Assembly (NCBI GenBank): GCA_027064085.1
Contig: JAMOQH010000194.1
Coordinates: forward strand, 1-24,872
DNA length: 24,872 nucleotides
DNA from: a bacterium
Lineage (GTDB): Bacteria > UBP6 > JAFGXH01
Reading direction: 5' to 3'
Part shown: positions 361 to 20,709 of the stretch, in pieces
How the letters are laid out: each line of letters opens with the position of its first letter
Position numbering within the stretch: position 1 is the first letter of the stretch
Program-made: the position numbers and the translations under genes
Notes under the pieces: model-generated
The model's database searches: none
Seen by the model: only the letters and a program-made list of their open reading frames with translations
Told to the model about the DNA's origin: nothing

Positions 361-890
361 TTGAAGATACTGTAATTGATCCATGTGAAAAATTTGATTG
401 TTCTGATAATCCTAATACTCATTGCATAAATTATCAAGGAAATCCTGCTTGTAAATGTGATGATGGCTTCCATTTAGATGATGACAGAATATTATGTATT
501 CAAGATTCTAGTGATTTATGTGAAGGGGCTTTTTGTAATAATCATGGAACATGTAAAGTAAAAAACTCACAAGCATACTGTGAATGTGAAAACGGATATA
601 TTTCTAGTGATAATTTATCATGTGTTGAAAACATAACTGATTTATGTAAAGATGTTACTTGTAGTAATCATGGTTCATGTGCTGTTTCTGACAATAAAGC
701 AAATTGTATCTGTGAAGAAGGGTTTACTCAAAACGGTTTAACTTGTATAGAAAATACTACTAATAATGATAAAAATAGTAACTTTTTATCTTGTAACTAT
801 TCAAGTAGCAATGATAATTTATTGTTCTTTTTAATAATTCTTTCATTAGTTATACTTATTGTTAAGGAGAAAAGGATTAAAAATATTTAA
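1..890 (+). CDS. EGF-like repeat surface protein with C-terminal SCNY anchor (5' end outside window)
   Basis: The open frame runs in from the left edge (first full codon at base 3) and stops with TAA at 888-890, so 295 C-terminal residues are visible. They form six EGF-like modules of the pattern CxxxxCxxHGxC...CxCxxGY...C. The first three modules are almost the same sequence, and the last three are diverged. The protein ends in Ser-Cys-Asn-Tyr, a hydrophobic stretch of about 18 residues and a basic tail (KEKRIKNI). The same tail closes the S8, M4 and C11 proteases in this window. By analogy with MYXO-CTERM proteins it is probably exported and anchored or processed at the Cys. The last EGF module resembles the last module of the M4 protease (CSNHGSC followed by NKAxCxCE), so the C-terminal cassette is shared. 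The N-terminal domain is not visible; it could be another protease or an adhesin. A start at base 99 (TTG) would be artificial because the frame is open upstream. Confidence 0.85.
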   Translation, partial: CDGISCSNHGTCINNNGIATCNCDNGYHSDNNLNCIEDITDPCDGISCSNHGTCINNNGIATCNCDNGYHSDNNLNCIEDITDPCDGISCSNHGTCINNNGIATCNCDNGYHSDNNLHCVEDTVIDPCEKFDCSDNPNTHCINYQGNPACKCDDGFHLDDDRILCIQDSSDLCEGAFCNNHGTCKVKNSQAYCECENGYISSDNLSCVENITDLCKDVTCSNHGSCAVSDNKANCICEEGFTQNGLTCIENTTNNDKNSNFLSCNYSSSNDNLLFFLIILSLVILIVKEKRIKNI

Positions 891-917
891 TTCTCCTCTT
901 AAATTAAAGAAATATAC

Positions 918-939
918 AAAAAATAATTGATTATTTTTT
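918..939. terminator. A/T-only inverted repeat between EGF gene and S8 protease
   Basis: A perfect inverted repeat AAAAAATAAT / ATTATTTTTT surrounds a 2-base centre, read as about 8 bp of stem with a 6-base loop. It lies 28 bp after the stop of the EGF protein. It contains no G-C pairs except at the loop, so it would be a weak terminator and may be incidental in such AT-rich DNA. Confidence 0.3.
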
Positions 940-984
940 AAAATAGGAGTAAATATTATTGTGTTGTTTTTTTGAGGTTCAATT

Positions 985-3672
985 ATGAAAAAATTATTAT
1001 TAATCTTAATGCTTATAGGTTTTGCCCTTTTAGGTAATGATTATTCAAAGATAAATGGAAAAATTTCGGGCTTAGAAGTAAGTAATAAATTTATTTCTTT
1101 AAAATTATCTCACTCCATAACTAAGGCTGAGTTTAAAAAAGAAATATCTGCTATTAAATATTTACCTAAAATATCAGAGGTTAAAACTTTATCAAATAAT
1201 TCATTTGTTATTAAATTTAAAAGTAATATTTCAACTAATGTTATTAATAAATTAAAAGAAAATTATAAAGTTTTACCTTCTTATACTCTTAATCAAGAAT
1301 ATTGGCCTTTTGTAACAGATAATACTATTAATATTAAATTTAAGCCAAATGTATCTACTGCAAAACAAAAGCAAATTTTATCAGAAAACGATTTGAAAAT
1401 AGTTGATACGGATATTTTTAATGATAAAATCCATACAATAAAAACAAATAAAGATGCTTTTTATATGGCTAATAAACTATTTGATACTGGATTTTTTGTT
1501 TTTAGTAATCCAAATTTTTATATGTTTCATATTAAAAAGTTTACACCAAATGATACCTACTTCAATAATGAATGGCACCATAAATCTAATAGTGCTGGTG
1601 TTTATTCAGAAGGTGCTTGGGATATCAATAGGGGAAGTTCAAGTATTAAAATTGCAATTATTGATGATGGTATGGAATTAAGCCATCCTGATTTAAATGT
1701 GATTGCTTCAAGGGATTTTAGTGGTTCAAATGGCTTTAATGATGGAGGGGAGCATGGAACTTCATGTGCTGGAGTTGCTGCTGCGAAAGGTAATAATGGA
1801 ATAGGAGTAAGTGGAGCATGTATGAATTGTTCTATTATTGCAGCAAAGATAATGCGAGAAGATGGTTATTCATTGCAAAATGCAGATGCAAATGCTTTTA
1901 ATTGGGCAACTTCTCAAGGAGCAGATGTATTTAATAATTCATGGGGATATCAACAAGATTTTGATATTAATAGTTATAATCCCAGGCTTGTAAGTGCAAT
2001 TAATTATGCCGTAACTAACGGGCGTAATGGTAAAGGGGGTGTAGTATTATTTGCTTCGGGTAATGAAAACAGAAGATTCTCAAATTCTTCTCTGGAAGGG
2101 TTACCAAATATTATTGCTGTTGGTGCAACAACCAATTACGGAAGCAGGGCATCTTATAGTAATTATGGAAGTGGATTAGATGTTGTTGCTCCTTCTAATG
2201 GTGGCAGTGAGGGTATTTATACAACAGATAGGCTAGGTAATAAAGGTTATAATCATAGTGGACATTATGTAGTAGAGGGTCAAGATTATGGTTATGGAAC
2301 TGATATAAGTGATGATGATTATTCTAAAAACTTTGGTGGTACTTCTAGTGCAACTCCATTAGTATCTGGTATCGTTGGTTTAATGCTCTCTGAAAACGCA
2401 AATTTAACGCCTCCACAAGTTAGACAAATTTTAGAAAATACTGCTGATAAAATTGGTAGTGCTAGTAATTATGATTCTAATGGACATAGTGATTATTTAG
2501 GTTATGGCAAAGTAAATTCTGAAAATGCATTAATTGCTGTTAGGAACTTAAGTGGTTGTACTCCAGACCCAAATGGAGAAAATTGTTCAAATAACATTGA
2601 TGATGATTGTGATGGTGCTATTGACGATAATGATAGTGATTGTGGCAGTGCTCCAAGTGCTTGTGATAATGTTAATTGTCCTGAAAATTCACACTGTGAT
2701 GTTGATAGTGGTGATGGCAATGCATATTGTTACTGTAACACTGGTTATCATGTAAATGATAATAGAAATGCATGTGTTGCAGATAATGGTAATACTAATG
2801 TTTGTGATGGATTTGATTGTAGCTCAAAGCCTAATTCCGTATGTATTGATAATGGAGGAACTGCTACTTGTAGTTGCCCAAGTGGATGGCATTGGAATAG
2901 TTCGCAAACAGCATGTGAACAAGGAACAACTAACCCGTGTAGTGGAATAACTTGTAGTGGGCATGGTAGTTGTGTAAATAATGGAGGTACTGCAAGTTGT
3001 AACTGTGATAATGGTTATACTGCAAGTGGTTTACATTGTGTTCAAAATAATACTAACCCATGTGATGGAATTAATTGTAGTGGGCATGGAGTATGTGCAA
3101 ACAATAATGGAATAGCAACTTGTAATTGTAATACAGGTTACATCTCAGATGGAAGCTTACATTGTTTAGTTGATAATTCTAATCCTTGTCAAGGAATTTT
3201 ATGTAGTAATCACGGAGTATGTGCAAATTACAATGGTGTAGCTAAATGTAACTGTGATACAGGTTATATTGCAAACGGATTGTATTGTGTTCAGGAAGTT
3301 AATCCTTGTGATAGTATAACTTGTAGTGGACACGGAATATGTGCAAAATATGATGGAGTTGCAAAATGTAATTGTGATATAGGATATCATGCTGATAATA
3401 ATTTACACTGTATTCAAGGTGATACTGATGTTTGTAGTAATGTAACTTGTAGCAATCATGGTTCATGTTATAATAATAACAATGTTGCAAGTTGTAATTG
3501 TGATAGTGGTTATAGCTCAAATGGGATACATTGTATAAAAGATTCAAGCAATAATAGTAATGGTTCTAGCTGCAATTATAGTTCAGAAACTAGTAATTTA
3601 TGGTTTATCTTATTATTAGTTGGAATTATTGCTTTTATTTCAAGAAAAAAATATAAAAAATTAAATAACTAA
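985..3672 (+). CDS. Secreted subtilisin-like (S8) serine protease with MopE-like segment, EGF-like modules and SCNY anchor
   Basis: The 895-residue protein starts at ATG 985 after GAGG, with a signal peptide at residues 1-17 (ends FALLG). Residues about 20-185 are probably an N-terminal prodomain. The subtilase domain spans about 190-520 and has all catalytic landmarks: Asp227 in IIDDG, His257 in GGEHGTS, oxyanion Asn360 in ASGNE and Ser454 in GGTSSATP. A calcium-binding-like segment follows (524-553, NNIDDDCDGAIDDNDSDC, MopE type), then about eight EGF-like modules to about 850. The tail is SSCNY with Cys863, a hydrophobic helix and a Lys/Arg-rich end. The protein is inferred to be exported, autoprocessed and surface-displayed, degrading extracellular protein. 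Its neighbours are another EGF protein upstream and an M4 protease 38 bp downstream, likely the same cluster and possibly one transcript. Substrate and exact subfamily cannot be read from sequence. Confidence 0.95.
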   Translation: MKKLLLILMLIGFALLGNDYSKINGKISGLEVSNKFISLKLSHSITKAEFKKEISAIKYLPKISEVKTLSNNSFVIKFKSNISTNVINKLKENYKVLPSYTLNQEYWPFVTDNTINIKFKPNVSTAKQKQILSENDLKIVDTDIFNDKIHTIKTNKDAFYMANKLFDTGFFVFSNPNFYMFHIKKFTPNDTYFNNEWHHKSNSAGVYSEGAWDINRGSSSIKIAIIDDGMELSHPDLNVIASRDFSGSNGFNDGGEHGTSCAGVAAAKGNNGIGVSGACMNCSIIAAKIMREDGYSLQNADANAFNWATSQGADVFNNSWGYQQDFDINSYNPRLVSAINYAVTNGRNGKGGVVLFASGNENRRFSNSSLEGLPNIIAVGATTNYGSRASYSNYGSGLDVVAPSNGGSEGIYTTDRLGNKGYNHSGHYVVEGQDYGYGTDISDDDYSKNFGGTSSATPLVSGIVGLMLSENANLTPPQVRQILENTADKIGSASNYDSNGHSDYLGYGKVNSENALIAVRNLSGCTPDPNGENCSNNIDDDCDGAIDDNDSDCGSAPSACDNVNCPENSHCDVDSGDGNAYCYCNTGYHVNDNRNACVADNGNTNVCDGFDCSSKPNSVCIDNGGTATCSCPSGWHWNSSQTACEQGTTNPCSGITCSGHGSCVNNGGTASCNCDNGYTASGLHCVQNNTNPCDGINCSGHGVCANNNGIATCNCNTGYISDGSLHCLVDNSNPCQGILCSNHGVCANYNGVAKCNCDTGYIANGLYCVQEVNPCDSITCSGHGICAKYDGVAKCNCDIGYHADNNLHCIQGDTDVCSNVTCSNHGSCYNNNNVASCNCDSGYSSNGIHCIKDSSNNSNGSSCNYSSETSNLWFILLLVGIIAFISRKKYKKLNN

Positions 3673-3710
3673 ACTTATTATATACTCAAGTTTAATAAAA
3701 TGGAGATAAT

Positions 3711-5990
3711 TTGAAAAAAATAATTATAATATCAATACTATTATCCTCTTTAATATTTGCAAGTGGAAATAATATCTTTAAAAAAATAAATAACTTTAAA
3801 TCAACAAAAGATATGTTTAATGAAGTATTATTGAAAAATGTAGATAATAAAGATGATTTTGAGTTTATTTTAAAGAAATCTATAAAAGGTCTTAGTGGAG
3901 TAGAGTATCTTCATTATAAGTATAAATATAAAAATATTATTGTGGAAAATCAGGAAATTGTTATTTCTAAAAAAGATGGAGTAGCATTTTTAATATCAGG
4001 AAATTTTGAGGTAGCCAAGTTAAAATCTTTAAGTTCAAAATTTACAGAAGTATATAGTTTTGATGTATTTAGGAAATCTGTTTTTGATTTAAAATTTTAC
4101 TCTCCTGTTGAAAAGGCTATAATAGTTAAAAATAAACATAGTTATCTAACATATAAAGCATTAATTGCCTACACAGATAAAAAAGGCTATCATTTAGGAG
4201 AGATTTATCTGGATTCTAATTCTTTTAAAATAATTGATTTTCATTCTAATAAATATGAAGCACTTTTTAGAAAAGTTTATACTTTTGATAATAAATGTTT
4301 TACTTCTACTGCAATGTATAATCAACTTCCCGGAGTTCATTTATTTAGTGAGGGATACGAAACTGATTATGATTCGGCTGCTTTATATGCGTATAATAAT
4401 ACTGGAATAACATATTGGTTTTATAAAAATATGTTAAATAGAGATAGTTTTGATAATAGAGGAAGAAATCTTATTTCAACTCTTCATGTTCAATTTTATG
4501 ATGAAAATTATGGTTGTCATGGTCAAAATGCTTCTTTCATGGGTTATCCTTTTTATCAAATGGTTTATGGAGATGGAAATCCTAATATTGATTCAGATGA
4601 CTATTCAAGAGGCTTAGATGTTGTTGCACATGAATTAACTCATGCAGTAACAGATGCAACAAGTGACTTAATCTACAGAGATGAAATGGGGGCTTTAAAT
4701 GAAGCTATGAGTGATATTTTTGGAGCAACTACAGAAGCTTGGAGTGATTCTGGTGGAACTTCAATGGGAAATCCAACAAATTTTATTGCTAATGATAATA
4801 CTTGGAAAATTGGTGAAAAAATTGGTTCTGTAATGAGATATATGAATAACCCTGCTTTGGCAAGGCAATCACAACCTGACCACTACAGTAATCTTAGATA
4901 TATTGGTACCGAAACTGATAATGGTGGAGTACATGTTAATTCAGGAATAATTAATTTGGCTTATTATTTACTGGTAGCAGGAGGCAAACACCCTGTTCGC
5001 ACACAAGATTTACAGGAAGTTGAAGGTATAGGTTTGGAAAAAGCCATTAAAATATATTATGAAGCTCAAATAGGCTTATTTGTTAATTCAACTAATTTTT
5101 CTATGGCTAGAACTTATTTAGCTCAAGCTGCAGAAAACCTTTATGGAGTTTGTTCTAATGAATCTGAGCAAGTAAATAGGGCTTATGATATTGTTGGAGT
5201 ACCTGGAACAAGAAGAAATGAATGTATTAAGTCTTGTGATGAATTGAATTGTGAAAATATACAACATAGTGCATGTTCAACTACAACTACAAACTCTTAT
5301 TGTAAATGTAATGAGGGCTTTCATTGGAATCAAAATCATACAACTTGTGAAGAAGATTATACTTGTTATAATGTTACTTGTAAAATGAATAATAGTCATT
5401 GTCAGGATTATAATGGTTCTGCTGTTTGCATTTGTGATGATGGATATTATATTGATGGGCAATCCTGTTTAAAAAAACAAGTAGATCCTTGCGAAAATAT
5501 TGATTGTGGTAGCCATGGGGAGTGTAGTAGTCAAGGGAATGATGTCGCTTGTGAGTGCAATCCAGGTTATACCTTAAGTGATGATAAATTAAATTGTATA
5601 AAATATGTAAATCCATGTAATGGTATTGATTGTTCTAATCATGGAAACTGTGTTATTAAAAATAATGAAGCATTGTGTGGTTGTTTTAATGGTTATCATG
5701 CCCAAGATTTAGAATGTATTGAAGATGAAGTTGATTTATGTGAAAATGTTTTATGCTCTAATCATGGTAGTTGTTTAGTTAGCAATAATAAAGCAAGTTG
5801 TGTTTGTGAAAATGGGTATGAAATTAAAGGATTAGATTGTATAAAAAAAGAAGTAAATAACACAACTAATGAGAAATCTAAAAATAACAGTTCTAGTTGT
5901 AATTATGGTAGCTCAGAAGGTAGCTCATTTTTATTTTTATTACTTATTGCTTTTATAGTTATTATGAAAAAGAAATCTAAACTTATTTAA
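3711..5990 (+). CDS. Secreted thermolysin-like (M4) metalloprotease with EGF-like modules and SCNY anchor
   Basis: The 759-residue protein starts at a TTG codon (3711) placed 5 bases after GGAG; no in-frame ATG fits as well. The signal peptide is residues 1-18 (ends IFA-SG). Residues about 25-180 look like the FTP/propeptide region of M4 enzymes. The catalytic domain shows HELTH (His307, Glu308, His311), the third zinc ligand Glu331 in GALNEAMSD, and the proton-donor His408 in GGVHVNSG. From about 505 come five to six EGF-like modules, then SSSCNY with Cys730, a hydrophobic helix and KKKSKLI. It hydrolyses peptide bonds with zinc, presumably outside the cell. It follows the S8 protease on the same strand with 38 bp between. 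Its stop codon overlaps the stop of the convergent membrane-protein gene by the 4 bases TTAA. Confidence 0.95.
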   Translation: MKKIIIISILLSSLIFASGNNIFKKINNFKSTKDMFNEVLLKNVDNKDDFEFILKKSIKGLSGVEYLHYKYKYKNIIVENQEIVISKKDGVAFLISGNFEVAKLKSLSSKFTEVYSFDVFRKSVFDLKFYSPVEKAIIVKNKHSYLTYKALIAYTDKKGYHLGEIYLDSNSFKIIDFHSNKYEALFRKVYTFDNKCFTSTAMYNQLPGVHLFSEGYETDYDSAALYAYNNTGITYWFYKNMLNRDSFDNRGRNLISTLHVQFYDENYGCHGQNASFMGYPFYQMVYGDGNPNIDSDDYSRGLDVVAHELTHAVTDATSDLIYRDEMGALNEAMSDIFGATTEAWSDSGGTSMGNPTNFIANDNTWKIGEKIGSVMRYMNNPALARQSQPDHYSNLRYIGTETDNGGVHVNSGIINLAYYLLVAGGKHPVRTQDLQEVEGIGLEKAIKIYYEAQIGLFVNSTNFSMARTYLAQAAENLYGVCSNESEQVNRAYDIVGVPGTRRNECIKSCDELNCENIQHSACSTTTTNSYCKCNEGFHWNQNHTTCEEDYTCYNVTCKMNNSHCQDYNGSAVCICDDGYYIDGQSCLKKQVDPCENIDCGSHGECSSQGNDVACECNPGYTLSDDKLNCIKYVNPCNGIDCSNHGNCVIKNNEALCGCFNGYHAQDLECIEDEVDLCENVLCSNHGSCLVSNNKASCVCENGYEIKGLDCIKKEVNNTTNEKSKNNSSSCNYGSSEGSSFLFLLLIAFIVIMKKKSKLI

Positions 5991-6475
5991 AAGCTATTTT
6001 CTTGATTGTTTTCATTTTCTTCAATATCTTTCTTTAGATTTTTATATTCTTGTAAACTTGGTTTATTAACAAGCATAATTATTATAGATACAAAAGTAAA
6101 AGCGATCTGAATTTTTATGTTTTTTCCCATAATAAATAAAATAAATCCAAAGGTTGCAATAGTTTCTGCAAGTGCAGAAGATAAAATTATTGTAATAAAA
6201 TATATCTTTTTTGCAGATTTGACATCTTTAAAGTACTTAGTATAAAATTTTTCTTTTACAAATAATTTTCTTGCTGAAATAGAAAAAATTCCCATTAATA
6301 ATGACATAAAAGAAAATATCATAAGAATAATTTTATAATTTTCAGGAATAGGTTGTGAAGCAAAATTAGAATTTTTATTCATTATGAGATAGTCAATTAA
6401 TATATACATTAATGAAGAAATAAGTAATGCAAACCACAAAATGAATGTAACACTAGTTTCTTTATTTTTTAACAT
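5987..6475 (-). CDS. Small four-helix inner-membrane protein, function unknown
   Basis: The product has 162 residues with hydrophobic segments at about 9-31, 47-67, 93-117 and 121-136 and a charged C-terminal tail (KKDIEENENN). The start is ATG at 6475 with AGGAGG upstream, and a good promoter lies just beyond (TTGACA-N17-TACTAT). I do not recognise the family. The third helix contains SALAETIATFGF, which resembles the glutamate-bearing helix of F-type ATP synthase subunit c (A..E....[YF]G). The protein is too long and has four helices rather than two, so this may be coincidence. It is transcribed alone, convergent with the M4 protease and divergent from the amidohydrolase, which gives no contextual clue to function. 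Confidence 0.75.
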   Translation of the reverse strand: MLKNKETSVTFILWFALLISSLMYILIDYLIMNKNSNFASQPIPENYKIILMIFSFMSLLMGIFSISARKLFVKEKFYTKYFKDVKSAKKIYFITIILSSALAETIATFGFILFIMGKNIKIQIAFTFVSIIIMLVNKPSLQEYKNLKKDIEENENNQENSF

Positions 6476-6496
6476 AAAACCTCCTAGATTTTAGGT

Positions 6497-6525
6497 ATAG
6501 TATTATTTAGGTGGCTATTTGTCAA
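6497..6525 (-). promoter_or_regulatory. Sigma-70-type promoter of the small membrane protein gene
   Basis: Reading the minus strand, TTGACA (6525-6520) is separated by 17 bases from TACTAT (6502-6497), followed about 20 bases later by AGGAGG and the ATG at 6475. The -35 is a perfect consensus match and the -10 matches 4 of 6. Confidence 0.65.
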
Positions 6526-6532
6526 ATTATTG

Positions 6533-6541
6533 TGGTATAAT
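6533..6541 (+). promoter_or_regulatory. Extended -10 promoter of the amidohydrolase gene
   Basis: TGG-TATAAT (TGn plus perfect -10) predicts a transcript starting near 6548, downstream of the TTG at 6519. This is one reason to choose ATG 6564 as the start. No convincing -35 is seen, which is common for extended -10 promoters. Confidence 0.55.
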
Positions 6542-6563
6542 TCATAGGTTTTTTGGGTTTTTT

Positions 6564-7931
6564 ATGATATTATTGTACAATACGAAAATTTGGGGGTATT
6601 CCGATAATATCAATTCTGTAGTTATTAAAGAGGATAAAATATTTTATATAGGGGAATTAAATAAAATACCAGATGGAGTGTATAAAAAAAAAATAAATTT
6701 AAAAAATAAACTACTTCTTCCATCTTTTATTGATACTCATACTCATTTTTCTGAATATATAAAATTAAAATCACAAATAAATTTCTCTAAAGTTAATAAT
6801 ATTGAGCAAATATTAAAATTAATTAATGATTATCCTAAAAAAGTAAAAGGATATGGATTGAATATTTCTAAGTTTAATAAAAAAGACTTAGATTCAATTT
6901 TTAAAAATATAAAAAGAAATCCTTTATTAACTATGGCTAGTAGTGATTATCATTCTTATCTAACAACCAGTATTGGTTTAACTGATTGGCCACCTAAATT
7001 ACCTAATAATAAAGAAAAACTCAATAACAAAGATATAAAGCTTGCAATTACTGAATTATATAAAATGGGAATAACATCAATACATGAAATGGCATTTACT
7101 AAAGAAGATTTTTATTTATATGATAATATTGCTAAAAATTTAGAAGTTTGTAGGCATTTTCCTCTTGAAATGCTTGATGAGATAATAAAAACCAATCAAA
7201 AATCGTACTTTGGAAATGAATATTTAAAATTAGCTTCATTGAAATTATTTTATGATGGTAGTATAGGCTCGAATACAGCCTTGATGTTCAACTCAAATAG
7301 TGGAAAGTTAAATTTAAAATATAAAGACTTAGATAAAATTATAGAAAAGGCATTAAATAATGATATTTCTGTTTCTATACATGCAATTGGAGATAGGGGA
7401 GTTGATGATATCGTTAATCTTTTTATAAAACATAAAAATAATATAAAAAAATTTGTAAGAATAGAACATGCACAAACTATTACAGATGAAACTATAGAAA
7501 AACTAGAAACAATTAAAGATAAAGTATATTTAAGTATGCAACCACTACATATTAGAGATGATTATTTAACTTTAAAAGATATGAGTATAAAAGATATTTC
7601 ATTTAGATTTAAAAGTCTTAAAAATATGACTATAGGATTTTCTAGTGATGTTCCTGTAGTAGAATTTAATCCATTTAAGGCAATTTATTATGCAATAACA
7701 CATAAATTAAATAAAAATGAAGCTATAACAGTTAAAGAGGCCATCGATAATTATACCATTAATGCTGCAAAGTTATCAAATAGTGATAAAATTAAAGGAA
7801 GTATAGAGATAGGGAAATTTGCAAATTTGGCATTAATTAATGATTATAGTAAATACAATGAAAGTTTTTGGTTAAACGCAAAATCTTATTTAACTATTTT
7901 AAGGGGTAGAGTTCTTTATATAGATTTGTAA
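6564..7931 (+). CDS. Amidohydrolase family 3 (YtcJ-like) metal-dependent hydrolase
   Basis: The product has 455 residues from ATG 6564 (MILLYNTKIWG), which is where members of this family normally begin. A TTG at 6519 would add 15 residues, but it lies upstream of the probable transcription start. Motifs of the amidohydrolase TIM barrel are present: HTH metal ligands His59 and His61 in FIDTHTHF, the DGSIGSNTA segment, His273 in SIHAIGDRG, His302 in RIEHAQ and Asp362 in GFSSDVPVVEFNPF. The C-terminal part (KGSIEIGKFANLALI) matches the small beta-sandwich of the family. The protein is cytoplasmic with no signal peptide. It is somewhat shorter than the usual 520-550 residues. The family hydrolyses C-N bonds of varied substrates, and the substrate here cannot be inferred. 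It is monocistronic and closed by a hairpin terminator at 7955-7976. Confidence 0.88.
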   Translation: MILLYNTKIWGYSDNINSVVIKEDKIFYIGELNKIPDGVYKKKINLKNKLLLPSFIDTHTHFSEYIKLKSQINFSKVNNIEQILKLINDYPKKVKGYGLNISKFNKKDLDSIFKNIKRNPLLTMASSDYHSYLTTSIGLTDWPPKLPNNKEKLNNKDIKLAITELYKMGITSIHEMAFTKEDFYLYDNIAKNLEVCRHFPLEMLDEIIKTNQKSYFGNEYLKLASLKLFYDGSIGSNTALMFNSNSGKLNLKYKDLDKIIEKALNNDISVSIHAIGDRGVDDIVNLFIKHKNNIKKFVRIEHAQTITDETIEKLETIKDKVYLSMQPLHIRDDYLTLKDMSIKDISFRFKSLKNMTIGFSSDVPVVEFNPFKAIYYAITHKLNKNEAITVKEAIDNYTINAAKLSNSDKIKGSIEIGKFANLALINDYSKYNESFWLNAKSYLTILRGRVLYIDL

Positions 7932-7954
7932 TTTATTATTCAAAACTCTATTTG

Positions 7955-7976
7955 CCCACATTCGTGGGTTTTATTT
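7955..7976 (+). terminator. Rho-independent terminator after the amidohydrolase
   Basis: CCCAC-ATTC-GTGGG forms a 5-bp G/C-rich stem with a 4-base loop, directly followed by TTTTATTT, 24 bp after the stop codon. Confidence 0.7.
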
Positions 7977-8010
7977 GGATAAAATATACAATTGAAAAAT
8001 ATGATGTTTT

Positions 8011-8316
8011 TTAGTTGCAGTTATTTAATTCTGAAGTGCTCTGGCTATTCATTATACAGTTATATGTGCTTTTATTAAAATCTTTTGCGCATTGTTTTAT
8101 TGATGTATTTTTTTTAGCTTCAAATTCACCTCTTAAAGAATCAATAGCCTCATTTCTTTCTGTTGAAGACAAAGAATTTATCGATTCTGAATTAATAGTT
8201 AAATCATACATGTGTTCCATCATTTCATTACATTTTTTTTCTTCGGGACTTTTACTTTTACAACTAGAAATTAATATTAGTGATAGTATAAAAATGATAC
8301 TAAAAAATTTATTCAT
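8011..8316 (-). CDS. Small Cys-rich lipoprotein
   Basis: The product has 101 residues. The start ATG at 8316 follows GAGGAG. A type II signal peptide (MNKFFSIIFILSLILISSC) puts the lipidated Cys at residue 19 in an ISSC lipobox. The mature part has four further Cys (29, 76, 87, 100). The spacing CAKDF...C IMNSQSTSELNNC resembles small secreted Cys-containing proteins seen in Deltaproteobacteria-type genomes, probably with two disulfides. Its start overlaps the end of the upstream gene by 8 bases (ATGAATAA on the minus strand), so the two are co-translated. It is probably outer-membrane or periplasmic; function unknown. A longer open frame on the other strand over this region has no ribosome site and low-complexity sequence, and is not a gene. 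Confidence 0.75.
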   Translation of the reverse strand: MNKFFSIIFILSLILISSCKSKSPEEKKCNEMMEHMYDLTINSESINSLSSTERNEAIDSLRGEFEAKKNTSIKQCAKDFNKSTYNCIMNSQSTSELNNCN

Positions 8317-12812: not shown

Positions 12813-12845
12813 ATTTTATCCTCCTAGAATATATCTCTTATATAT

Positions 12846-12853
12846 ATATTCGG
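12846..12853 (-). promoter_or_regulatory. CCGAATAT element upstream of the Cache chemoreceptor
   Basis: CCGAATAT lies 34 bp before the start codon. The same octamer stands 30 bp before the start of the second chemoreceptor (18221-18228). It could be part of a promoter or an operator; no matching -35 is evident. Confidence 0.35.
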
Positions 12854-12860
12854 ATAAAAT

Positions 12861-12878
12861 AATAATAATATTATTATT
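12861..12878. repeat. 18-bp perfect A/T palindrome
   Basis: AATAATAATATTATTATT is self-complementary over 18 bases. It sits between the zinc-ribbon gene and the chemoreceptor, adjacent to the CCGAATAT element. It may be a weak terminator for the upstream minus-strand gene or only low-complexity sequence. Confidence 0.4.
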
Positions 12879-12915
12879 TATAGGTAAAAAATATTTGTGA
12901 GTATAATAAATACAC

Positions 12916-12943
12916 TATATCGGAAGAGCTTTATGTCAATTTA
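12916..12943 (-). promoter_or_regulatory. Candidate sigma-28 (FliA-type) promoter for the Cache chemoreceptor
   Basis: Minus strand TAAA (12943-12940), 15 bases, then T-CCGATATA (12924-12916), one mismatch from the flagellar sigma pattern TAAA-N15-GCCGATAA/T. It would give a leader of about 95 bases. Chemoreceptor genes are classical targets of this sigma factor. Chance matches are possible in AT-rich DNA. Confidence 0.4.
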
Positions 12944-12984
12944 ATTTGCTTATACTTAAATAAGTTGAAATGTTTTTATTGTTT

Positions 12985-13740
12985 TTATTCTTCTACATCA
13001 AGAGGGTCTATGTATAAAATACATTTACATGAAGGACATGTAATTATTTCATTATGTCTTTTGTCGGGAATTGCTTCCCTATATATTTCATTCAGGATTT
13101 GAGGTGTAATTTGCATAAAACATCTTGAACAACTGTCATTTTCTACTCTTGAAACAACTCCACCTGGAAAAGCTTCATTAATTTCTTTATATAGAGTAAC
13201 TAAATCTACATTTGTGTCAACTTTATCTAATTCTTTAAATAGAAGTTCTTGTTTTTTGTTTATTTCAGCAATTTCTTCTAAAAAATTATGTTCTTCTTTT
13301 TCTAGTTTAGCTAATTCATTTTCATTATTTTTTTTAGTAGTTTCAAAATCATTTTTAGCTTCTTCAACAACTTCAATTGTATCTTTTAATAGTGTTTCAC
13401 TTGAAAGAAGTTCTTCTTCTCTTACAATTAGCAATCTTTTTTTATCTTCATAATCTTTTAATAAAGCTTCATCAGTTTCATTTTCTGAAAGTTTTTTAGT
13501 TGCTAATTCTGCATCTTTTTTAAGTTCTACAACTTCTTCTTGAATATAAGATAATTCAAGTTTTTGGTCTTCGTAGTGTTCTTGTTCTGATTTATAGTAA
13601 TTTTCTTTTTTTACAATTTCATTTAGTAATTCTTCTCTTTTTACTGGAAGATTCTTAAATTCATCTTTAAGCATAATAATTTTGTTATTGAGCCTATCCA
13701 ACTCTAACATTGTTTCAAGTTCTTTTTTTAGTTTTGACAA
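12985..13740 (-). CDS. Coiled-coil protein with C4-type zinc ribbon (HP0958/FlgZ-CdsZ family)
   Basis: The product has 251 residues. The start is TTG at 13740, set after GGAGGT that lies inside the last codons and stop of the upstream gene. Residues about 5-185 are a long Glu/Lys-rich antiparallel coiled coil. Residues 195-251 form a zinc ribbon with CSRC (Cys204, Cys207) and CPSC (Cys235, Cys238) and the family sequence following the first pair (FMQITPQILNEI). Relatives in Helicobacter and Campylobacter assist flagellar gene expression, and relatives in Chlamydia bind type III export or ribosomal partners. Which role applies here is unknown. It is cotranscribed with the NIF3 gene, 3 bases away, a pairing that is common in bacteria. 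Confidence 0.88.
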   Translation of the reverse strand: MSKLKKELETMLELDRLNNKIIMLKDEFKNLPVKREELLNEIVKKENYYKSEQEHYEDQKLELSYIQEEVVELKKDAELATKKLSENETDEALLKDYEDKKRLLIVREEELLSSETLLKDTIEVVEEAKNDFETTKKNNENELAKLEKEEHNFLEEIAEINKKQELLFKELDKVDTNVDLVTLYKEINEAFPGGVVSRVENDSCSRCFMQITPQILNEIYREAIPDKRHNEIITCPSCKCILYIDPLDVEE

Positions 13741-13743
13741 AAC

Positions 13744-14538
13744 CTACCTCCATAAAATAAAGGGATTATCTTCCTTATTAAAAATATCAATAAAAATTTC
13801 TTTAAAATTAAATTCTAGAAGCTTTTTTAATATAATTAACGAATGACGCTCCGAGTTAAAATGACCCAAATCGATAACAGATAAACCTAATTGTTCTGCT
13901 AATCTAGCATCATGATATTTTATGTCACCCGTAATATACAAATCAGCTCCTTTTTGATAAACATCTTCAATAAAAGATGCTCCACTGCCACCCATTATGG
14001 CAATTACTTCTATGACTTTATCAATATCTCCAACAAAACGCAAATATTTTGCCAAAGATTTTTCTTTAACAGCATTTAATATGTCAGAATAAGCCATTTT
14101 TTTATTTAATTTAATAATACGACCAAATCCAACATTATTTTCTGTATTATTTTTAATGAAGGATTTACTTTCATACTTAAAATCTAATTTATCTAATAAT
14201 GCATCACTAACAGTTGGTTCTACCGAATCAAAATTAGTATGTGCTGAATAAATTGTTATATTATTTAGTATAGCTTTTTTTATAACTCTTCCTAGGTATG
14301 TTTGAGTATCAATAGGAAAAATAGCCTTTAATGCAAGAGGATGGTGGGTTATAATCAAATTTATCTTATTTTTAATGGCATAATTAACAACTTCTTCAAG
14401 TGGGTCCAAGGCTAATATAATTTTTGATGTATTAACTGTGGTATCTCCAACTTGTAATCCTGATTTATCCCATTTTTCTGAATATTTTAAAGGATAATTA
14501 TTCTCTAAAACATTTAATATATCTTTTATTATTGCCAT
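13744..14538 (-). CDS. NIF3-family (YbgI/YqfO-like) dinuclear metal protein
   Basis: The 264-residue protein is of the short form without the PII-like insertion. The N-terminal WDKSGLQVGD, then LITHHPLALK (His65, His66), HTNFDSV, and the C-terminal GGSGASFIEDVYQKGADLYITGDIKYHD and LGHFNSER give the metal-binding set of the family. Such proteins are cytosolic hexamers, sometimes annotated as GTP cyclohydrolase I type 2, with an uncertain physiological substrate. ATG 14538 agrees with the usual family N-terminus, yet no Shine-Dalgarno sequence precedes it. The start lies 32 bp downstream of the tRNA 3' end, so the mRNA may be made by tRNA processing. It is followed after 3 bp by the zinc-ribbon gene. 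Confidence 0.92.
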   Translation of the reverse strand: MAIIKDILNVLENNYPLKYSEKWDKSGLQVGDTTVNTSKIILALDPLEEVVNYAIKNKINLIITHHPLALKAIFPIDTQTYLGRVIKKAILNNITIYSAHTNFDSVEPTVSDALLDKLDFKYESKSFIKNNTENNVGFGRIIKLNKKMAYSDILNAVKEKSLAKYLRFVGDIDKVIEVIAIMGGSGASFIEDVYQKGADLYITGDIKYHDARLAEQLGLSVIDLGHFNSERHSLIILKKLLEFNFKEIFIDIFNKEDNPFILWR

Positions 14539-14570
14539 TTTATTTGATTATTAAAAGAAGTTAATAAAAG

Positions 14571-14644
14571 TGGGCCTACCTGGATTTGAACCAGGGACCG
14601 ACCGGTTATGAGCCGGTGGCTCTAACCAACTGAGCTATAGGCCC
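14571..14644 (-). tRNA. tRNA with CAU anticodon, probably Ile2 (lysidine-modified)
   Basis: The full cloverleaf is read on the minus strand: acceptor GGGCCTA/TAGGCCC (7 perfect pairs), D arm GCTC/GAGC, anticodon stem ACCGG/CCGGT with loop CTCATAA, T stem CCTGG/CCAGG, discriminator A. The 3' CCA is not encoded (next base C, then TTTT). The anticodon CAT fits Met or Ile2. C4-G69 and C5-G68 in the acceptor stem agree with tRNA(Ile) lysidine synthetase recognition and with known Ile2 sequences, so Ile2 is preferred over elongator Met. Confidence 0.93.
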
Positions 14645-14777
14645 ACAGTTGATGTGTGATATAATTAGCATATCTATATGAATATTTCAACTATTTTTTT
14701 TATAAATTTATAAAAAAATAATGAAATGATATGTATTTGTGAGTGTTTTCAAGAACTTTAATAATATTTTTTTATAG

Positions 14778-14805
14778 TTGATAATTTTAAATTATTTGTT
14801 ATAAT
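14778..14805 (+). promoter_or_regulatory. Promoter of the lipoprotein-yggS operon
   Basis: TTGATA (14778-14783), 16 bases, TATAAT (14800-14805) with an extended TGT before it. The start codon is 29 bp downstream after GGAGG. Confidence 0.65.
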
Positions 14806-14833
14806 TCATAAGTGTTTATTTGGGAGGAACATA

Positions 14834-15913
14834 ATGAGGTTATTTTTACTTAGTTTATTAAGTTTGATTGTATTATTTACATATTCTTGTAGTGGTAGTG
14901 ATGGTGGTAGTGATGACACAGGCTGTAAAACTAATGCAGATTGTACTGATAATAAAGTTTGCAATACAAAAACAAGTAAATGTGAAGCAGAAATTTTAAA
15001 AGATGTTTTGACTTCTATTGAAGTTGATATTGAAAATTCTTCAGATGCTAAAAAAGCAAGTGTGTTAGTTGGAGAAAAGAAAACTGTTAGAGCATGGGGA
15101 GTATATGATGAAAATGAAACAGATGCTCAAGATATCTCAAAAAAAGTTAGATGGTATAGTTCTAATTCATTAATCGGTATTGCAAGTAAAAATAGTAATG
15201 GTGAAATTGAATTTAAAGCTAAAAAGGCTGGTAGTGTTGAGATTTATTGTAAATATCAAGGTATAGAAAGTACAAGAGTTACTTTTGAGGTAACAGATGC
15301 TATTATTGCGAGCATAGACTTAAAGAGTAATTCAGGTGATTCAATATTTTTACATCAATCAGTTATTTGGAATATTATCGCAACTTTTGAAGGAGGAAAA
15401 CAAGGTAAACTTGAGCCTGATACTGTTGAGTTTCATTCCAATCCAGAGGGATTAGTTAAAAATGAAGATGGTGAATATAAATTTTCTACTGTTGGAACTT
15501 ATGATGTATGGGTTACAAAAGATGGAAAGGAAAGTACTCATGTACAAATAGATGTTAATGCTAATATTATAACCAAGTTAGAGTTGACTTATGATAGAAA
15601 TGATGGGGATTTTGTAGTAAATATTGCTCATAAAGTTATTATAAATGAAGTTTATGAGGGTAATGGTAAAGGTGAATTAACAGATGCTACAGGTTTAGAA
15701 TGGGTTTGTGAAACAAGGGTTGATAATGGAGATGGTACTTATACTCCAACAGATTGTGTTGAGGGAGATTATGAAGTTGATGGATTTAACATAAGCTTTA
15801 AAAGAGCAGAAACATTTTATGTAACTGTTTCTAAAACTTATACTGAAAATACTACTTGTGAAGAAAATAAGTGTTCTGCTTTATTTCCTTTTCTTGTTGC
15901 GGAGGCTCAGTAA
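14834..15913 (+). CDS. Lipoprotein with Cys-rich N-terminus and Ig-like (Big-2-like) domains
   Basis: The product has 359 residues. The start ATG at 14834 follows GGAGG. The signal peptide ends LFTYSC with probable lipidated Cys19 (the lipobox is not canonical because of Tyr at -2), followed by a Ser/Gly/Asp linker. Residues 31-50 form a small Cys motif (CKTNADCTDNKVCNTKTSKC) common in myxobacterial-type lipoproteins. Then come about three beta-sandwich-like segments; the first (about 55-155) has the VRWYSSN...I..A...G...KAKKAGSVEIYCKY pattern of bacterial Ig-like group 2 domains. It is probably on the outer membrane as a structural or binding protein; no enzyme motif is seen. It is coupled to yggS: the TAA overlaps the next ATG by one base, and the ribosome site GGAGG lies within its last codons. 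The product pairing is functionally odd. Confidence 0.85.
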   Translation: MRLFLLSLLSLIVLFTYSCSGSDGGSDDTGCKTNADCTDNKVCNTKTSKCEAEILKDVLTSIEVDIENSSDAKKASVLVGEKKTVRAWGVYDENETDAQDISKKVRWYSSNSLIGIASKNSNGEIEFKAKKAGSVEIYCKYQGIESTRVTFEVTDAIIASIDLKSNSGDSIFLHQSVIWNIIATFEGGKQGKLEPDTVEFHSNPEGLVKNEDGEYKFSTVGTYDVWVTKDGKESTHVQIDVNANIITKLELTYDRNDGDFVVNIAHKVIINEVYEGNGKGELTDATGLEWVCETRVDNGDGTYTPTDCVEGDYEVDGFNISFKRAETFYVTVSKTYTENTTCEENKCSALFPFLVAEAQ

Positions 15914-16602
15914 TGAGAGATAGATTTTTATTCCATAATTTATTAGATATTAAAGAGCAGATAAATTTTATAAAATCAGAATATAAGTCTAATGATGTAA
16001 AAATAATTGCTGTCTCTAAAAAAAAACCTCTATCTGATATAGAAATACTTAATTCTTTAAATCATCATTTATTTGGTGAAAATTATGCTCAAGAATTAAA
16101 AGAAAAATATGAAAATTTTAGTGGTGAAAAACCAATATTTCATTTCATTGGCCCTTTGCAAACTAATAAAGTTTCTATGATAATAGATAAAGTTGAGTTA
16201 ATTCATTCAGTTGATAGAGAAAAATTAGCGAAAGTTATCAACAATGAGGCTAAAAAGTTAAATAAAATTCAAAATATTCTTGTTCAGTTAAACTTAACTC
16301 AAGAAGCAACTAAGGCAGGGATAGCTGAAAACGAATTAATCCCATTTATAGAAAAAATTTCTAAATATGACAATATAAAAGTAGTTGGTTTAATGACTAT
16401 GCCCTATTTTACTGACAATTTAGAAGAAATTAGGCCCATTTTTGCAAAACTTAGAAATTTAAGGAATAATTTAAATACTCAAGGGTTTCATGATATAAAA
16501 GAACTGTCTATGGGAATGAGTAATGATTATAAACTTGCAATAGAAGAAGGTGCAACTATGATAAGAGTGGGAACAGCTATCTTTGGAGCAAGGACTTATT
16601 AA
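15913..16602 (+). CDS. yggS: YggS/PROSC-family pyridoxal-phosphate homeostasis protein
   Basis: The protein has 229 residues when started at ATG 15913, which has GGAGG 7 bases upstream and matches the normal family N-terminus; a longer frame from 15871 would run inside the lipoprotein gene without support. It is a fold-type III PLP protein: Lys36 in IIAVSKKKP forms the Schiff base. [58 protein letters not shown] are the family landmarks. It is cytosolic and maintains free PLP balance, with no known enzymatic activity. It is translated from the lipoprotein transcript (TAATG junction). Its stop overlaps that of the convergent chemoreceptor by TTAA. Confidence 0.94.
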
Positions 16603-18191
16603 AAAATACCATTTTCATTCATAGATTGGGAGTATTTACTATCCATTCCTAAAATATGATCTTGTAGCCAACCTTTTGCGAAAGCCATTATGTCTATAAA
16701 GTCAACATCTTTATCTGATTGCAAGTCTTTAATAATTGTTCTTAATTTAGCAATTAGTGCTTTATGGATTCTAATTTGTTCAGAAAGTCCTGAATAATTT
16801 ATTTTATTCATGAGTTCTTCTTCGTCATCAAAATGTTTTTCTGTGAAATCTGTTAAATCAATTACTATTTTAATCATTTCTTCTTTCGTTGCATTACTTT
16901 TGATTGCTTTGTGTAGTTTATTTATTCTATCAAATATTCCAGAATGTTCATTGTCTAGTTCTTTAACCTTCACACTCCAACTTTCATTGAATGTAAATAG
17001 TGACTTATCTACTTGTTTAGCTTTATTTGTTAAATCAGAGGTTAATTTAAATCTTTTAACTAGTAATATAACATCTTCTGATTTAGATGTAATTTCCATT
17101 GCATTAATATATAGATTCGTTGAATCAGATTTTAGGTTTTTACTTGTTTTTGCAATATCAGTAATTGAATTTGAAACTTGATTAGTCATATTATTTGCTT
17201 CTGTAATATTTTTAGTTATTTCATTTATTGCAATAGACGCTTCTTGAACGGCCATAGTCATATCTTCAATACCATTTGCAGCTGATGAAATACTTGATGA
17301 CATATCATTGGTTGTAATTGATTGTTCTTCTACTGAAGTAGCAATGGATGTAACGATTTCATTAACATTATTTATAACCTGATTAATACTTTCTATTTCA
17401 TCTATTGTTGTTTTTGTTGCGGTTTGCATGGTATCTACTTTTTGTTTTATTTCACTAGTTGCTGTATTGGTTTGATTTGCAAGTTTTTTTACTTCTTCTG
17501 CAACAACAGCGAAACCTCTACCTGCTTCTCCAGCTCTTGCGGCTTCAATCGTAGCATTAAGGGCTAGTAGCTTAGTTTGATTTGATATATCGGCTATTGA
17601 TGAAGTTACATTACTAATATCCTTGGCTGCTTTACCGAGCTCTTGAACTCTATTATTTGCATTTATAACGGCTTCAACTGCTTTTGCAACTATATTTCGA
17701 GCATCTTCTGCATTTCTTGCTATTTCTGAAACGGTCGCAGTCATTTCTTCTGTTGCTGTTGCGACTGAATTAACATTATCAGAAGAATCTTGAGCTCTTT
17801 TTGATACTATATCCATATTAATACTTAATTCTTCTGTTGCAGATGCCACTGAGTTCATATTATTATTCATGATTTCAGCTGCATTGTTTACTTCAATAAT
17901 TTCTGTATCAATTTTAGTTATTTTATTCATTGTTTCTTTAGATGTTTCTTGCATTTCTTTAGATGATGCTAAAAGTGCATTTGATGATTTAAGTACACCA
18001 AAAATAATATTCGCAACTTTATTTTTTGTTTTATTCACTAAATCAATATACTCATTTATTTGAGCAACATCACTATTATGCTTTAAGTTTTCAGAAAAAT
18101 CTAACTTGCCTAATTTTTGAATTACTTCAATAGAATACCTTAACTGGGTTTGCATTTCTAGAAGCACTTCATTGTTATCAGAACGAGACAT
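16599..18191 (-). CDS. Soluble chemoreceptor with C-terminal hemerythrin domain
   Basis: The 530-residue protein has no signal peptide or membrane segment. Residues 1-380 are a coiled-coil methyl-accepting domain whose tip (202-241) reads [29 protein letters not shown]. Residues 400-525 form a bacteriohemerythrin four-helix bundle. Ligand positions by ungapped motif matching are His416 (DNEH), His453 and Glu457 (HFDDEEELM), His476, His512 and Asp517 ([10 protein letters not shown]). The position before His476, normally His in YPGLxEHxxEH, is Gln472 here ([11 protein letters not shown]). The protein probably senses oxygen, redox state or nitric oxide in the cytoplasm and signals to CheA. Start ATG 18191 follows GGGAGG. 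The gene stands alone, convergent with yggS and divergent from the C11 protease. Confidence 0.94.
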
Positions 18192-18220
18192 TTAACCTCC
18201 CTACATTAATATACTAAATT

Positions 18221-18233
18221 ATATTCGGAATAT
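18221..18233 (-). promoter_or_regulatory. CCGAATAT element in a 13-bp palindrome upstream of the hemerythrin chemoreceptor
   Basis: ATATTC-C-GAATAT is a perfect odd-length palindrome (18221-18233), 30 bp before the start. It shares CCGAATAT with the site before the Cache chemoreceptor. A TATAAT overlaps its downstream end on the minus strand, so it may be a -10 region or an operator covering it. Confidence 0.4.
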
Positions 18234-18255
18234 TTTAAATAAAAAATTATATTAT

Positions 18256-18284
18256 TTGATAATTTTTTATTTTATTGTTAATGT
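18256..18284 (+). promoter_or_regulatory. Candidate promoter of the C11 protease gene
   Basis: TTGATA (18256-18261), 17 bases, TGT-TAATGT (-10 18279-18284). The -35 is good and the -10 weak (3 of 6), helped by the TGn extension. Confidence 0.4.
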
Positions 18285-18306
18285 AGAGTGTTTTTATGGG
18301 GATTAT

Positions 18307-20709
18307 ATGAAAATAATAATAATATTTTTCTTTTTGGTAACCTCTTTTTTATATGCAAAAGAATGGACCATAATGGTGTTTATTAATGGCGATAATAGTT
18401 TAGATGAATATGCTTTTATGGATTTAAATGAATTAGAAATTATTGGCTCTGATGAGAATATAAATATTTTAGTTCAATATGATAGATTTGAAGCAAACTC
18501 ACAAGCTAATTGGAGTAGTGCAAAAAGATTTTATGTTACAACTGATTATGATGTAGATACAATTACTTCAACTGAAATTAGTGATTTAGGAGAAGTTGAT
18601 AGTGGTGATTATCATACTATTGTTGATTTTGTAAACTGGGGAAAAAATAATTATCCTGCTGATAATTATGCTCTTATTATGTGGGATCATGGTAGTGGTT
18701 GGCAGAAAAAGAGTTTAAATAGAAAATTTCAAAAATCTATTTCCGTTGATGATACAAGTGGAAACCATATTTCTGTTGCAAATGGAGATTTTGAAGCAAT
18801 GCTTTCACAAATTAAGCAATCTTTGGGTAAGAAGCTTGATTTTTTAGGCTTAGATGCCTGTTTAATGGGAATGTGGGAAGTTACTTATTCCTCTGAAAAA
18901 TACAGTCGGTTTTTAGCCTTCAGTGAAGAAACTGAAAATGCTAGTGGTTGGGAGTATTATACTTTACTAGATTTATTTAAGCAAAGTGATAAAACTGCAA
19001 GGTCTTTATGTAAATCAGTAGTCAATTCTTCTTTAGATTCTGTTGGAGCTACGATATCATGTATTGATTTAAGTTATATCCCGTCTTTGACGGAAAATAT
19101 AAATAATTTCGCCTTACAATATCAAGATAATCACAGTATTGATTTTGAAATATTAACAGCTTATTCTAATACTCTAAGCATGGAAACTGAAGAATACTAT
19201 AAAGACTTTGGAATGTTTTTTAATAATTTAATATTATTAGTGAATGATGACATTAAAGCTCAATGGATAGCACCTATTTTAAATGATTATTTTAGTGCAG
19301 TTGTGCTCTCTAAGGGAAAAAATACTGATATCGCTGATTATACAAAAGCAACAGGTTTTACCATTTTTATGAATGCTGGTAGTACTTTTAGTGAAGGTGA
19401 AGAAGATTTATACTTAAATTCTAACTGGAGTATAAATACCTCATGGGATGATTTTATTACAAGAGAATTTTACTTTAATGAAGATGAATATGAACCCGAT
19501 AATTCTATGCAAGAAGCTTATTATAATGAAAATTTAGAAACAACTAATCATTCAATTCATAGAAGATTAGATACTGATTTTATGAAACTTAATTTAAAAA
19601 AAGGGTTTTCATATACCTTTGAAACAGAGTGTTCATCTTATGATACATATATGAAACTTTTAGATGAAAATGGAAATATTATTTTAGAAGATGATGATGG
19701 TGGAGTTGATAGATGTTCTAAAATTAATTATTTTTCAGAAGTAAATCAAGTTGTTTATTTAGAAACCTACACTTATGAGCATGAAACAATTGCCATTTAT
19801 AGCTTAAGTATTTCCGAAACAGAAAGAATAGATGATTTTCCTAATTCTATAGAAAATATTTCAGATTCAGATATCTTAAAAAATGATTTAAGTGCTGAAA
19901 TTAATTATATTAATGATATTGATGTTTTTTATCTTGATTTAAATAATTACAGTGAATATACAATTGAAACAATAAATGATGGTTTAGATGACACAATATT
20001 AATTATTTTTGATTCAAATGGAGAATATGTTACCGAAAATGATGATATAGATACTAGTGGTGAAAACTATATGTCAAAAATCATTTTTGAGCCCGAAAGT
20101 AATGGTAGATATTATTTTTTTGTTAAAGCTTATGATGATAAAGTTGGAAAATATAAAATTAAATTAACAACTGAAAATAAATGCACTGAAACAAACGCTG
20201 GTGTAGAAATTTGTGATGGAATTGATAATAATTGTGATGGAAATATAGATGAAGCCCTTAATATTCCTGATTCTAATAAGCAAAATGGTGTTTGTAAGGG
20301 GCAAAAAAAGATATGTGATGGCGTTAATGGTTGGGTAGAACCTGATTATTCTGAAATCAAAAATTATGAATCCATAGAAATAACATGTGATGGATTTGAT
20401 AATAATTGTGATGGAGAAATTGATAACAATTTAACAGCTCCTAAAAATATAAATCAAAATGGCGTTTGTTTGGATAGTCTTATGATTTGTATGGGGGTAA
20501 ATGGTTGGGTAGAAAATTATGATAATATTAAAAATTATTCAAAATTAGATGATACTAATGATAAATTAGATAATAATTGTGATGGTCAAATTGATGAAAG
20601 TTACAAAAAGCCTAGTAGTTGTAATTATGGAAAAGGAAGTGATAATCTTTTATTGATTTTTATGTTTTTTCTCCTTTTGATTTTTATTAGGAAATCATTA
20701 CATATTTAA
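18307..20709 (+). CDS. Secreted clostripain-like (C11) cysteine protease with PPC-like and MopE-like domains and SCNY anchor
   Basis: The protein has 800 residues from ATG 18307 (after GGGGA); an upstream in-frame extension is unsupported because the signal peptide begins here (MKIIIIFFFLVTSFLYA). The C11 domain (about 19-390) begins WTIMVFINGDNSLDEY and carries catalytic His128 (LIMWDHGSGW) and Cys185 (LDFLGLDACLMGMWE). Two beta-rich segments follow (about 394-505, 510-622) resembling pre-peptidase C-terminal domains (EPDNS start). Then come MopE-type metal-binding repeats at about 635-650, 693-708 and 750-766 (CDGIDNNCDG, CDGFDNNCDG, KLDNNCDG). The tail is SSCNYG with Cys772, a hydrophobic run and IRKSLHI. 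Clostripains usually cleave after Arg/Lys. It is inferred to be exported and surface-held like the S8 and M4 enzymes. Convergent with the sigma factor gene. Confidence 0.95.
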   Translation: MKIIIIFFFLVTSFLYAKEWTIMVFINGDNSLDEYAFMDLNELEIIGSDENINILVQYDRFEANSQANWSSAKRFYVTTDYDVDTITSTEISDLGEVDSGDYHTIVDFVNWGKNNYPADNYALIMWDHGSGWQKKSLNRKFQKSISVDDTSGNHISVANGDFEAMLSQIKQSLGKKLDFLGLDACLMGMWEVTYSSEKYSRFLAFSEETENASGWEYYTLLDLFKQSDKTARSLCKSVVNSSLDSVGATISCIDLSYIPSLTENINNFALQYQDNHSIDFEILTAYSNTLSMETEEYYKDFGMFFNNLILLVNDDIKAQWIAPILNDYFSAVVLSKGKNTDIADYTKATGFTIFMNAGSTFSEGEEDLYLNSNWSINTSWDDFITREFYFNEDEYEPDNSMQEAYYNENLETTNHSIHRRLDTDFMKLNLKKGFSYTFETECSSYDTYMKLLDENGNIILEDDDGGVDRCSKINYFSEVNQVVYLETYTYEHETIAIYSLSISETERIDDFPNSIENISDSDILKNDLSAEINYINDIDVFYLDLNNYSEYTIETINDGLDDTILIIFDSNGEYVTENDDIDTSGENYMSKIIFEPESNGRYYFFVKAYDDKVGKYKIKLTTENKCTETNAGVEICDGIDNNCDGNIDEALNIPDSNKQNGVCKGQKKICDGVNGWVEPDYSEIKNYESIEITCDGFDNNCDGEIDNNLTAPKNINQNGVCLDSLMICMGVNGWVENYDNIKNYSKLDDTNDKLDNNCDGQIDESYKKPSSCNYGKGSDNLLLIFMFFLLLIFIRKSLHI

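Follow-up and report, generated by a model that had tools for sequence, protein, structure and literature searches.

A C-terminal Cys tail with an aromatic residue at Cys+2 and a myxosortase-like protease: a probable divergent sorting system in an uncultured bacterial lineage

Bacterial sorting signals built around an invariant Cys are paired with CPBP proteases of a shared core in Synerg-CTERM/MrtS (NF040589) and JDVT-CTERM/MrtJ (NF033192). A further such pair is MYXO-CTERM and MrtX of Myxococcus xanthus, where a myxosortase has been demonstrated experimentally only recently: 35 proteins encoded in that genome carry the tail, and cleavage by MrtX and its dependence on conserved Cys residues have been shown by experiment, while lipidation is still hypothetical (Guo, Haft and Wall, 2025, PMC11980579). 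Here we analyze a contig of 24,872 nucleotides (the window; JAMOQH010000194.1, assembly GCA_027064085.1) from a bacterium of the phylum holding UBP6, and a C-terminal tail carrying Ser-Cys-Asn-Tyr (SCNY) that is shared by four of the proteins it encodes. This tail is very probably a sorting signal, and we have good confidence that it is part of a divergent, lineage-specific myxosortase/Cys-CTERM system displaying hydrolases, which would extend this kind of sorting, with a signal sequence of its own, to bacteria outside Myxococcota.

The tail and its distribution

The tail, its spread through the genome and its restriction to one lineage, the catalytic residues and fold of the candidate enzyme, GspD and the Lgt paralogues described below were all computed directly. 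An earlier note on this DNA had placed SCNY tails on an EGF-repeat protein and on S8, M4 and C11 proteases; all four were located exactly as claimed, each Cys at its given position, and domain matches confirmed the four protein classes (Table 1). In each, SCNY leads into polar residues, a hydrophobic run and finally Lys/Arg, and the four occurrences of SCNY in the six-frame translation of the window are these four tails. The S8 (MKKLLLILMLIGFALLG), M4 and C11 proteins also carry a predicted N-terminal signal peptide.

Profiles were built by iteration from the four window tails (A1), then from 14 (A2) and 32 tails (A5); as each contains its own training rows, a fair assessment looks at what each step newly recovered and at the 383 genomes that stayed empty. 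A1 detected further tails on unrelated proteins of the same genome (E 7e-7, 1e-6, 5e-6, 2e-5 and 5e-4), the match at 2e-5 being the internal tail of a fused open reading frame (ORF) and the other new matches being C-terminal. With A2, in which the Cys is invariant and the Tyr nearly so, extra tails were found in the window's genome (G000) and, from E 8e-8, in two relatives (G001 and G002) that together with it form family f1, comprising two genera; no tails were found with A2 in the other 25 genomes of the phylum. At E<=1e-3, A5 matched in three of 386 genomes, all of family f1, and in the other 383 no tail was found. The idea of a lineage-specific signal is thus upheld, and searching the genome and its relatives with a profile of the four tails, the check that the note had proposed, did recover the tail in further unrelated proteins and in both G001 and G002.

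The full A5 listing for G000 holds 20 matches down to E 3e-8, followed by a gap to 0.015; since the same tail is repeated at two contig ends, these are 19 distinct tails. One additional true tail, on an amidase encoded on contig C106, lies below threshold (E 0.17). The counts for G001 and G002 are 13 and 12. An exclusively C-terminal position, as the note expected, holds for all tails except three internal ones, which are orthologues of one conserved fusion.

SCNY proved too narrow as a defining signature: it is one form among several of a general motif, [S/G]-C-[N/S/D/T]-[Y/F], whose core is C-[NSDT]-[YF], usually after S or G. After the motif come 6-10 polar residues rich in Ser and Asn, a hydrophobic stretch of 14-18 residues and a short end of Lys/Arg, and most tailed proteins with a complete N-terminus carry a predicted signal peptide. 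Against the NCBIfam sorting-signal models the tails gave only scattered weak matches to unrelated models (best E 0.0067), and no Pfam model matched them. A nucleotide pattern (W-S-N-TGY-AAY-TAY) was discarded as a search tool, being too unspecific: it matched 248 times and its reverse 50 times.

Three of the four window genes are adjacent and share EGF repeats, and SCNY in its strict form clusters in the window, as would be expected if the tails were recent copies of one gene end, spread by duplication or conversion and lacking a dedicated function. This explanation is already disfavored and we consider it highly improbable: outside the motif the tails have diverged (mean column identity in A5, 34%), and they are found on S8, M4, M36, C11, C1, M14, C39, amidase, CAP and TSP3 proteins, encoded on many contigs in both genera.

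A different objection is that the tail escapes cutting and serves as a stable C-terminal anchor, its Cys being structural or engaged in a disulfide, and that the CPBP protein described below serves other substrates. A hydrophobic run with a basic end suffices for anchoring in the inner membrane, many of the cargo proteins are Cys-rich, and processing of the tails is something we infer. However, a simple anchor could do without an invariant Cys and the [NSDT]-[YF] that follows it. We scanned the C-terminal segments of 1088 ORFs in ~1.52 Mb of G000, made up of 0.45 Mb around matches and 1.07 Mb of other contigs (the latter chosen mainly by size, not strictly at random, and including C106, already known to contain a weak match). 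An isolated membrane segment followed by basic residues ends 23 of the 1088; in 18 of these 23 a Cys stands just before the segment, all 18 carry the motif, and the motif is missing from the 5 other anchors. Moreover, the tail is limited to one lineage, a myxosortase-like protease is present there, and a secreted protease or amidase could do little if kept at the inner membrane. Together these points make a stable anchor unlikely.

Table 1. Coordinates of the tails, cargo genes and genes of the proposed system. Positions without a genome or locus label are those of the window.
Feature	Position	Strand	Remarks
EGF-repeat protein tail (FLSCNYSSSNDNLLFFLIILSLVILIVKEKRIKNI)	783..887	+	Cys codon 792-794
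S8 subtilase + EGF protein tail	3559..3669	+	Cys863 at 3571-3573
M4 thermolysin-like + EGF protein tail	5886..5987	+	Cys730 at 5898-5900
C11 clostripain-like + MopE-motif protein tail	20608..20706	+	Cys772 at 20620-20622, numbered from ATG 18307
EGF-repeat protein gene (cargo)	3..890	+	PF07974, E 4.6e-18; 5' end lost at contig start
S8 protease gene with EGF repeats (cargo)	985..3672	+	PF00082, E 6.7e-44
M4 protease gene with EGF repeats (cargo)	3711..5990	+	PF02868, E 9.1e-43
C11 protease gene (cargo)	18307..20709	+	Start = ATG 18307; PF03415, E 6.8e-43
Myxosortase-like CPBP gene, 230 aa (amino acids)	G000:C182:43667-44356		Outside the window, on another contig
lspA/lgt cluster	L204:5733-8592 (G000:C131)		2 lspA + 2 diverged lgt genes
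Similar lspA/lgt cluster	L206:4615-7129 (G001:C123)		
Paired lgt genes	G002:C210		
Fused ORF	L004:6410-11755 (G000:C80); G002:C208; G001:C252		Tail + lipoprotein signal + second exported domain

A myxosortase-like CPBP protein as the candidate enzyme

Only two CPBP (PF02517) proteins are encoded in G000. One of them reaches 74.0 bits against the PF02517 model (cut-off 22.4), and its best NCBIfam matches are to MrtP (104.5 bits), MrtC (96.8), Mrt_core (91.4), MrtX (75) and MrtS (74); this protein is, in our judgment, probably the enzyme acting on the tails. The note was right that the window holds no candidate: the gene lies on another contig and was therefore not visible to a reader of the window. 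Its proposal that the tail has its own processing enzyme stands insofar as the genome encodes one myxosortase-like CPBP protein. This protein does not represent a new class: it is related to the known myxosortases and has diverged from them, and nothing of unknown class need be invoked. The second CPBP protein (L021, encoded downstream of an insertase gene) was set aside as MroQ/ABC-permease-like with a weak Mrt_core match, as was the membrane protein adjoining the M4 gene (ORF 5987-6475 of the window), which is without any family match.

Orthologues of the candidate are present in G001 (58% identity) and G002 (50%), and alignments A3 and A4 show no variation in the catalytic residues E-E-x3-R, H and H-x3-N, which 28 relatives share. 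We modeled the G002 orthologue (predicted local distance difference test score, pLDDT, 95.2) and found an Rce1 fold. MmRce1 (4cad) was the sole convincing Foldseek match (prob 1.00), and with VIA-align the model matched 4cad with Z 14.7 (root-mean-square deviation 2.9 over 191) and SpdC (6u0o) with Z 16.9, the next row being at 5.4.

In G001, where the enzyme gene is split across two contig ends, the gene of a tailed S8 protease of 907 aa lies two genes upstream of it on the same strand. We also note a gene for an 85-aa lipoprotein directly beside the myxosortase-like gene, conserved in G001 and G002 (L060:355-612 and L024:102-359); in G001 it precedes the enzyme gene in the same orientation, and it was not found in the G000 stretches examined. 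A scan for C-terminal Cys tails in flanks of up to 10 kb beside the enzymes of 80 other genomes revealed no substrate genes.

Several observations weigh against the assignment. The enzyme stays under the curated cut-off of every named myxosortase (MrtX, MrtC, MrtP, MrtS, MrtJ and MrtZ), and both it and the G002 orthologue (97.8 bits) miss the 100-bit cut-off of Mrt_core (NF040914); as these scores fall just below the cut-offs, we regard the enzyme as a close myxosortase relative, short of formal membership. Its gene in G000 is directly downstream of ftsY rather than beside a substrate gene, a substrate gene was seen near the enzyme gene in only one of the three f1 genomes, and the pairing of enzyme and tail is based on three genomes of two genera. 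Cleavage, lipidation, that pairing and surface location are likewise what we infer, and the search for rhomboid and exosortase proteins, which gave no convincing candidate, was a motif scan of ~1.5 Mb and not a whole-genome family search.

This last point bears on the proposal that another intramembrane sorting enzyme, whether a rhombosortase, an exosortase or one of an unknown kind, acts on the tails in place of the CPBP protein. Rhombosortases and exosortases likewise act on tripartite tails (PMC11980579), and the search for them covered part of the genome, by motif. Yet the tails have no PEP or GlyGly motif, all of them contain the invariant Cys typical of myxosortase substrates, none convincingly matches a curated sorting-signal model, and the scan turned up two poor rhomboid-like candidates and no exosortase-like one, so that we think such an enzyme quite unlikely.

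The case for the CPBP protein is also informed by the sister families of f1 in the phylum (f2, f3 and f4). Other families of the phylum encode a CPBP protein with the same profile of myxosortase model matches, and tails of the form C-[ST]-[ILVM] are present in the sister families (GCGCSTVG, CDCSLIAG, GSGCSIVT and GGCSIVAA), followed by a helix and an Arg end. The architecture and the kind of enzyme, both in the same genomes, are like those of f1, and the MYXO-CTERM cut-off is passed in five f3 genomes and in no f1 genome. As the residue at Cys+2 is aliphatic in f2, f3 and f4 and aromatic in f1, the f1 tail differs mainly at this position and is a variant of an existing kind. In a phylogenetic tree the f1 enzymes form their own clade (100/100), separate from the remaining enzymes of the phylum; however, a common clade with them was not rejected (p-AU 0.296), so simple vertical descent is possible, and we do not claim that the f1 enzyme was acquired horizontally from Myxococcota.

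Cargo, lipidation machinery and a fused reading frame

The cargo includes at least seven peptidase families. In G000 the tailed peptidases are S8 (n=5), M4, C11, C1 and M14, accompanied by a peptidylarginine-deiminase-like protein, a CAP protein, TSP3-repeat proteins (one with a C-type lectin domain) and a cell-wall amidase; G001 and G002 add M36-like and C39-like peptidases and further amidase and CAP proteins. The note's view of the tail as a device for displaying proteases therefore captures much of the cargo and leaves out the CAP, TSP3/lectin, deiminase-like and amidase proteins. The deiminase-like protein is of the Porphyromonas type (PF04371; L002:5865-7853, G000:C101), and N-acetylmuramoyl-L-alanine amidases with Ig-like repeats and the tail are encoded at L285:7783-9861 (G000:C106) and L217:84-2195 (G001:C244). 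A cell-wall amidase displayed on the surface hints at attack on other cells, and the set as a whole suggests hydrolases displayed on the surface of an uncultured lineage, which might use them in scavenging or predation.

Following the M. xanthus model (PMC11980579), we propose that cargo is exported by Sec via its N-terminal signal peptide and that the short hydrophobic helix of the tail would then keep it in the inner membrane, with the Cys facing the periplasm and the Lys/Arg end inside the cytoplasm. The Cys would be lipidated, perhaps by one of several Lgt-family enzymes, and the single myxosortase-like CPBP protein would cut on the far side of the Cys, freeing a lipid-anchored protein that the type II secretion system would deliver to the cell surface. 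By analogy with MYXO-CTERM, lipidation of the Cys seems likely; delivery by type II secretion, for which full-length GspD is present in all three f1 genomes, is rather favored, if with slightly less assurance.

Each f1 genome encodes several Lgt copies, and several matches to the Lgt family were obtained in every genome of the phylum. Of the acyltransferases that might act on the Cys in M. xanthus, Lgt is the one most favored (PMC11980579), and the f1 copies may serve the tails in this role. Which acyltransferase modifies the Cys is a question in the known system as well, and the tandem lspA-lgt-lgt cluster offers a concrete candidate. One clustered lgt carries a Cys-rich insertion, and the canonical lgt is on another contig.

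The internal tails belong to a long ORF present in all three f1 genomes (1781, 1730 and 1728 aa), which encodes, in order, an exported domain, a sorting tail ending in Arg-Lys-Lys, a lipoprotein signal peptide and a second extracytoplasmic domain that includes a P-domain. The second hydrophobic run directly abuts the tail and ends in Gly-Cys (ISGC, IGGC and FYGC), as a lipoprotein signal. No in-frame ATG, GTG or TTG was found at the G000 junction, which makes a separate start there unlikely, and both halves are ~47-48% identical across genera with no stop codon, which favors a joined protein over an assembly error. Such an architecture would make most sense if the tail is cut. There is perhaps an even chance that the chain forms a membrane hairpin in which the myxosortase-like enzyme makes one cut and lipoprotein signal peptidase another, yielding two lipid-anchored proteins, the first attached by its C-terminus and the second by its N-terminus, always in a 1:1 ratio; MXAN_5598 of M. 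xanthus, with an internal MYXO-CTERM, is a precedent (PMC11980579).

Two other features of the window may be mentioned. Three almost identical EGF units lie in tandem at the contig start (3-390), and this repeat probably broke the assembly there. A lipoprotein with a Big_2-like domain and a Cys-rich start, encoded at 14834-15913, is without the tail.

Comparison with known sorting systems

GlyGly-CTERM/rhombosortase and PEP-CTERM/exosortase follow the same tripartite logic, but they involve another class of enzyme and the f1 tails lack their GlyGly and PEP motifs. Synerg-CTERM/MrtS and JDVT-CTERM/MrtJ are closer in combining an invariant-Cys signal with the CPBP core, as in f1; however, the f1 enzyme scores below their cut-offs (74 of 130 bits for MrtS, 53 of 75 for MrtJ), and the f1 tails do not match the two signal models, apart from one JDVT-CTERM match at E 0.14.

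The likeness to MYXO-CTERM/MrtX (TIGR03901/NF040593) extends to the tripartite tail with its invariant Cys, single hydrophobic helix and basic end, found in f1 at the C-terminus of signal-peptide proteins, and to exported cargo that in M. xanthus includes hydrolases and adhesins. MrtX likewise belongs to the CPBP glutamic intramembrane proteases and has EExxxR and HxxxN motifs. M. xanthus has a type II secretion system, of which GspD is present in f1, and, like f1, it has a protein with an internal tail (MXAN_5598). In contrast, the MYXO-CTERM motif is of the GCGC type where f1 has C-[NSDT]-[YF], and the f1 basic end is Lys-rich as well as Arg-rich. TIGR03901 (cut-off 20 bits) matched nothing in G000, G001 or G002 at E<=0.1, the f1 enzyme reaches 75 of the 180 bits required for MrtX, and the organism is outside Myxococcota. 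A diverged enzyme and a differing signature in another phylum provide a natural comparison for the residues read beside the Cys, with Cys+2 aliphatic in the sister families and aromatic in f1.

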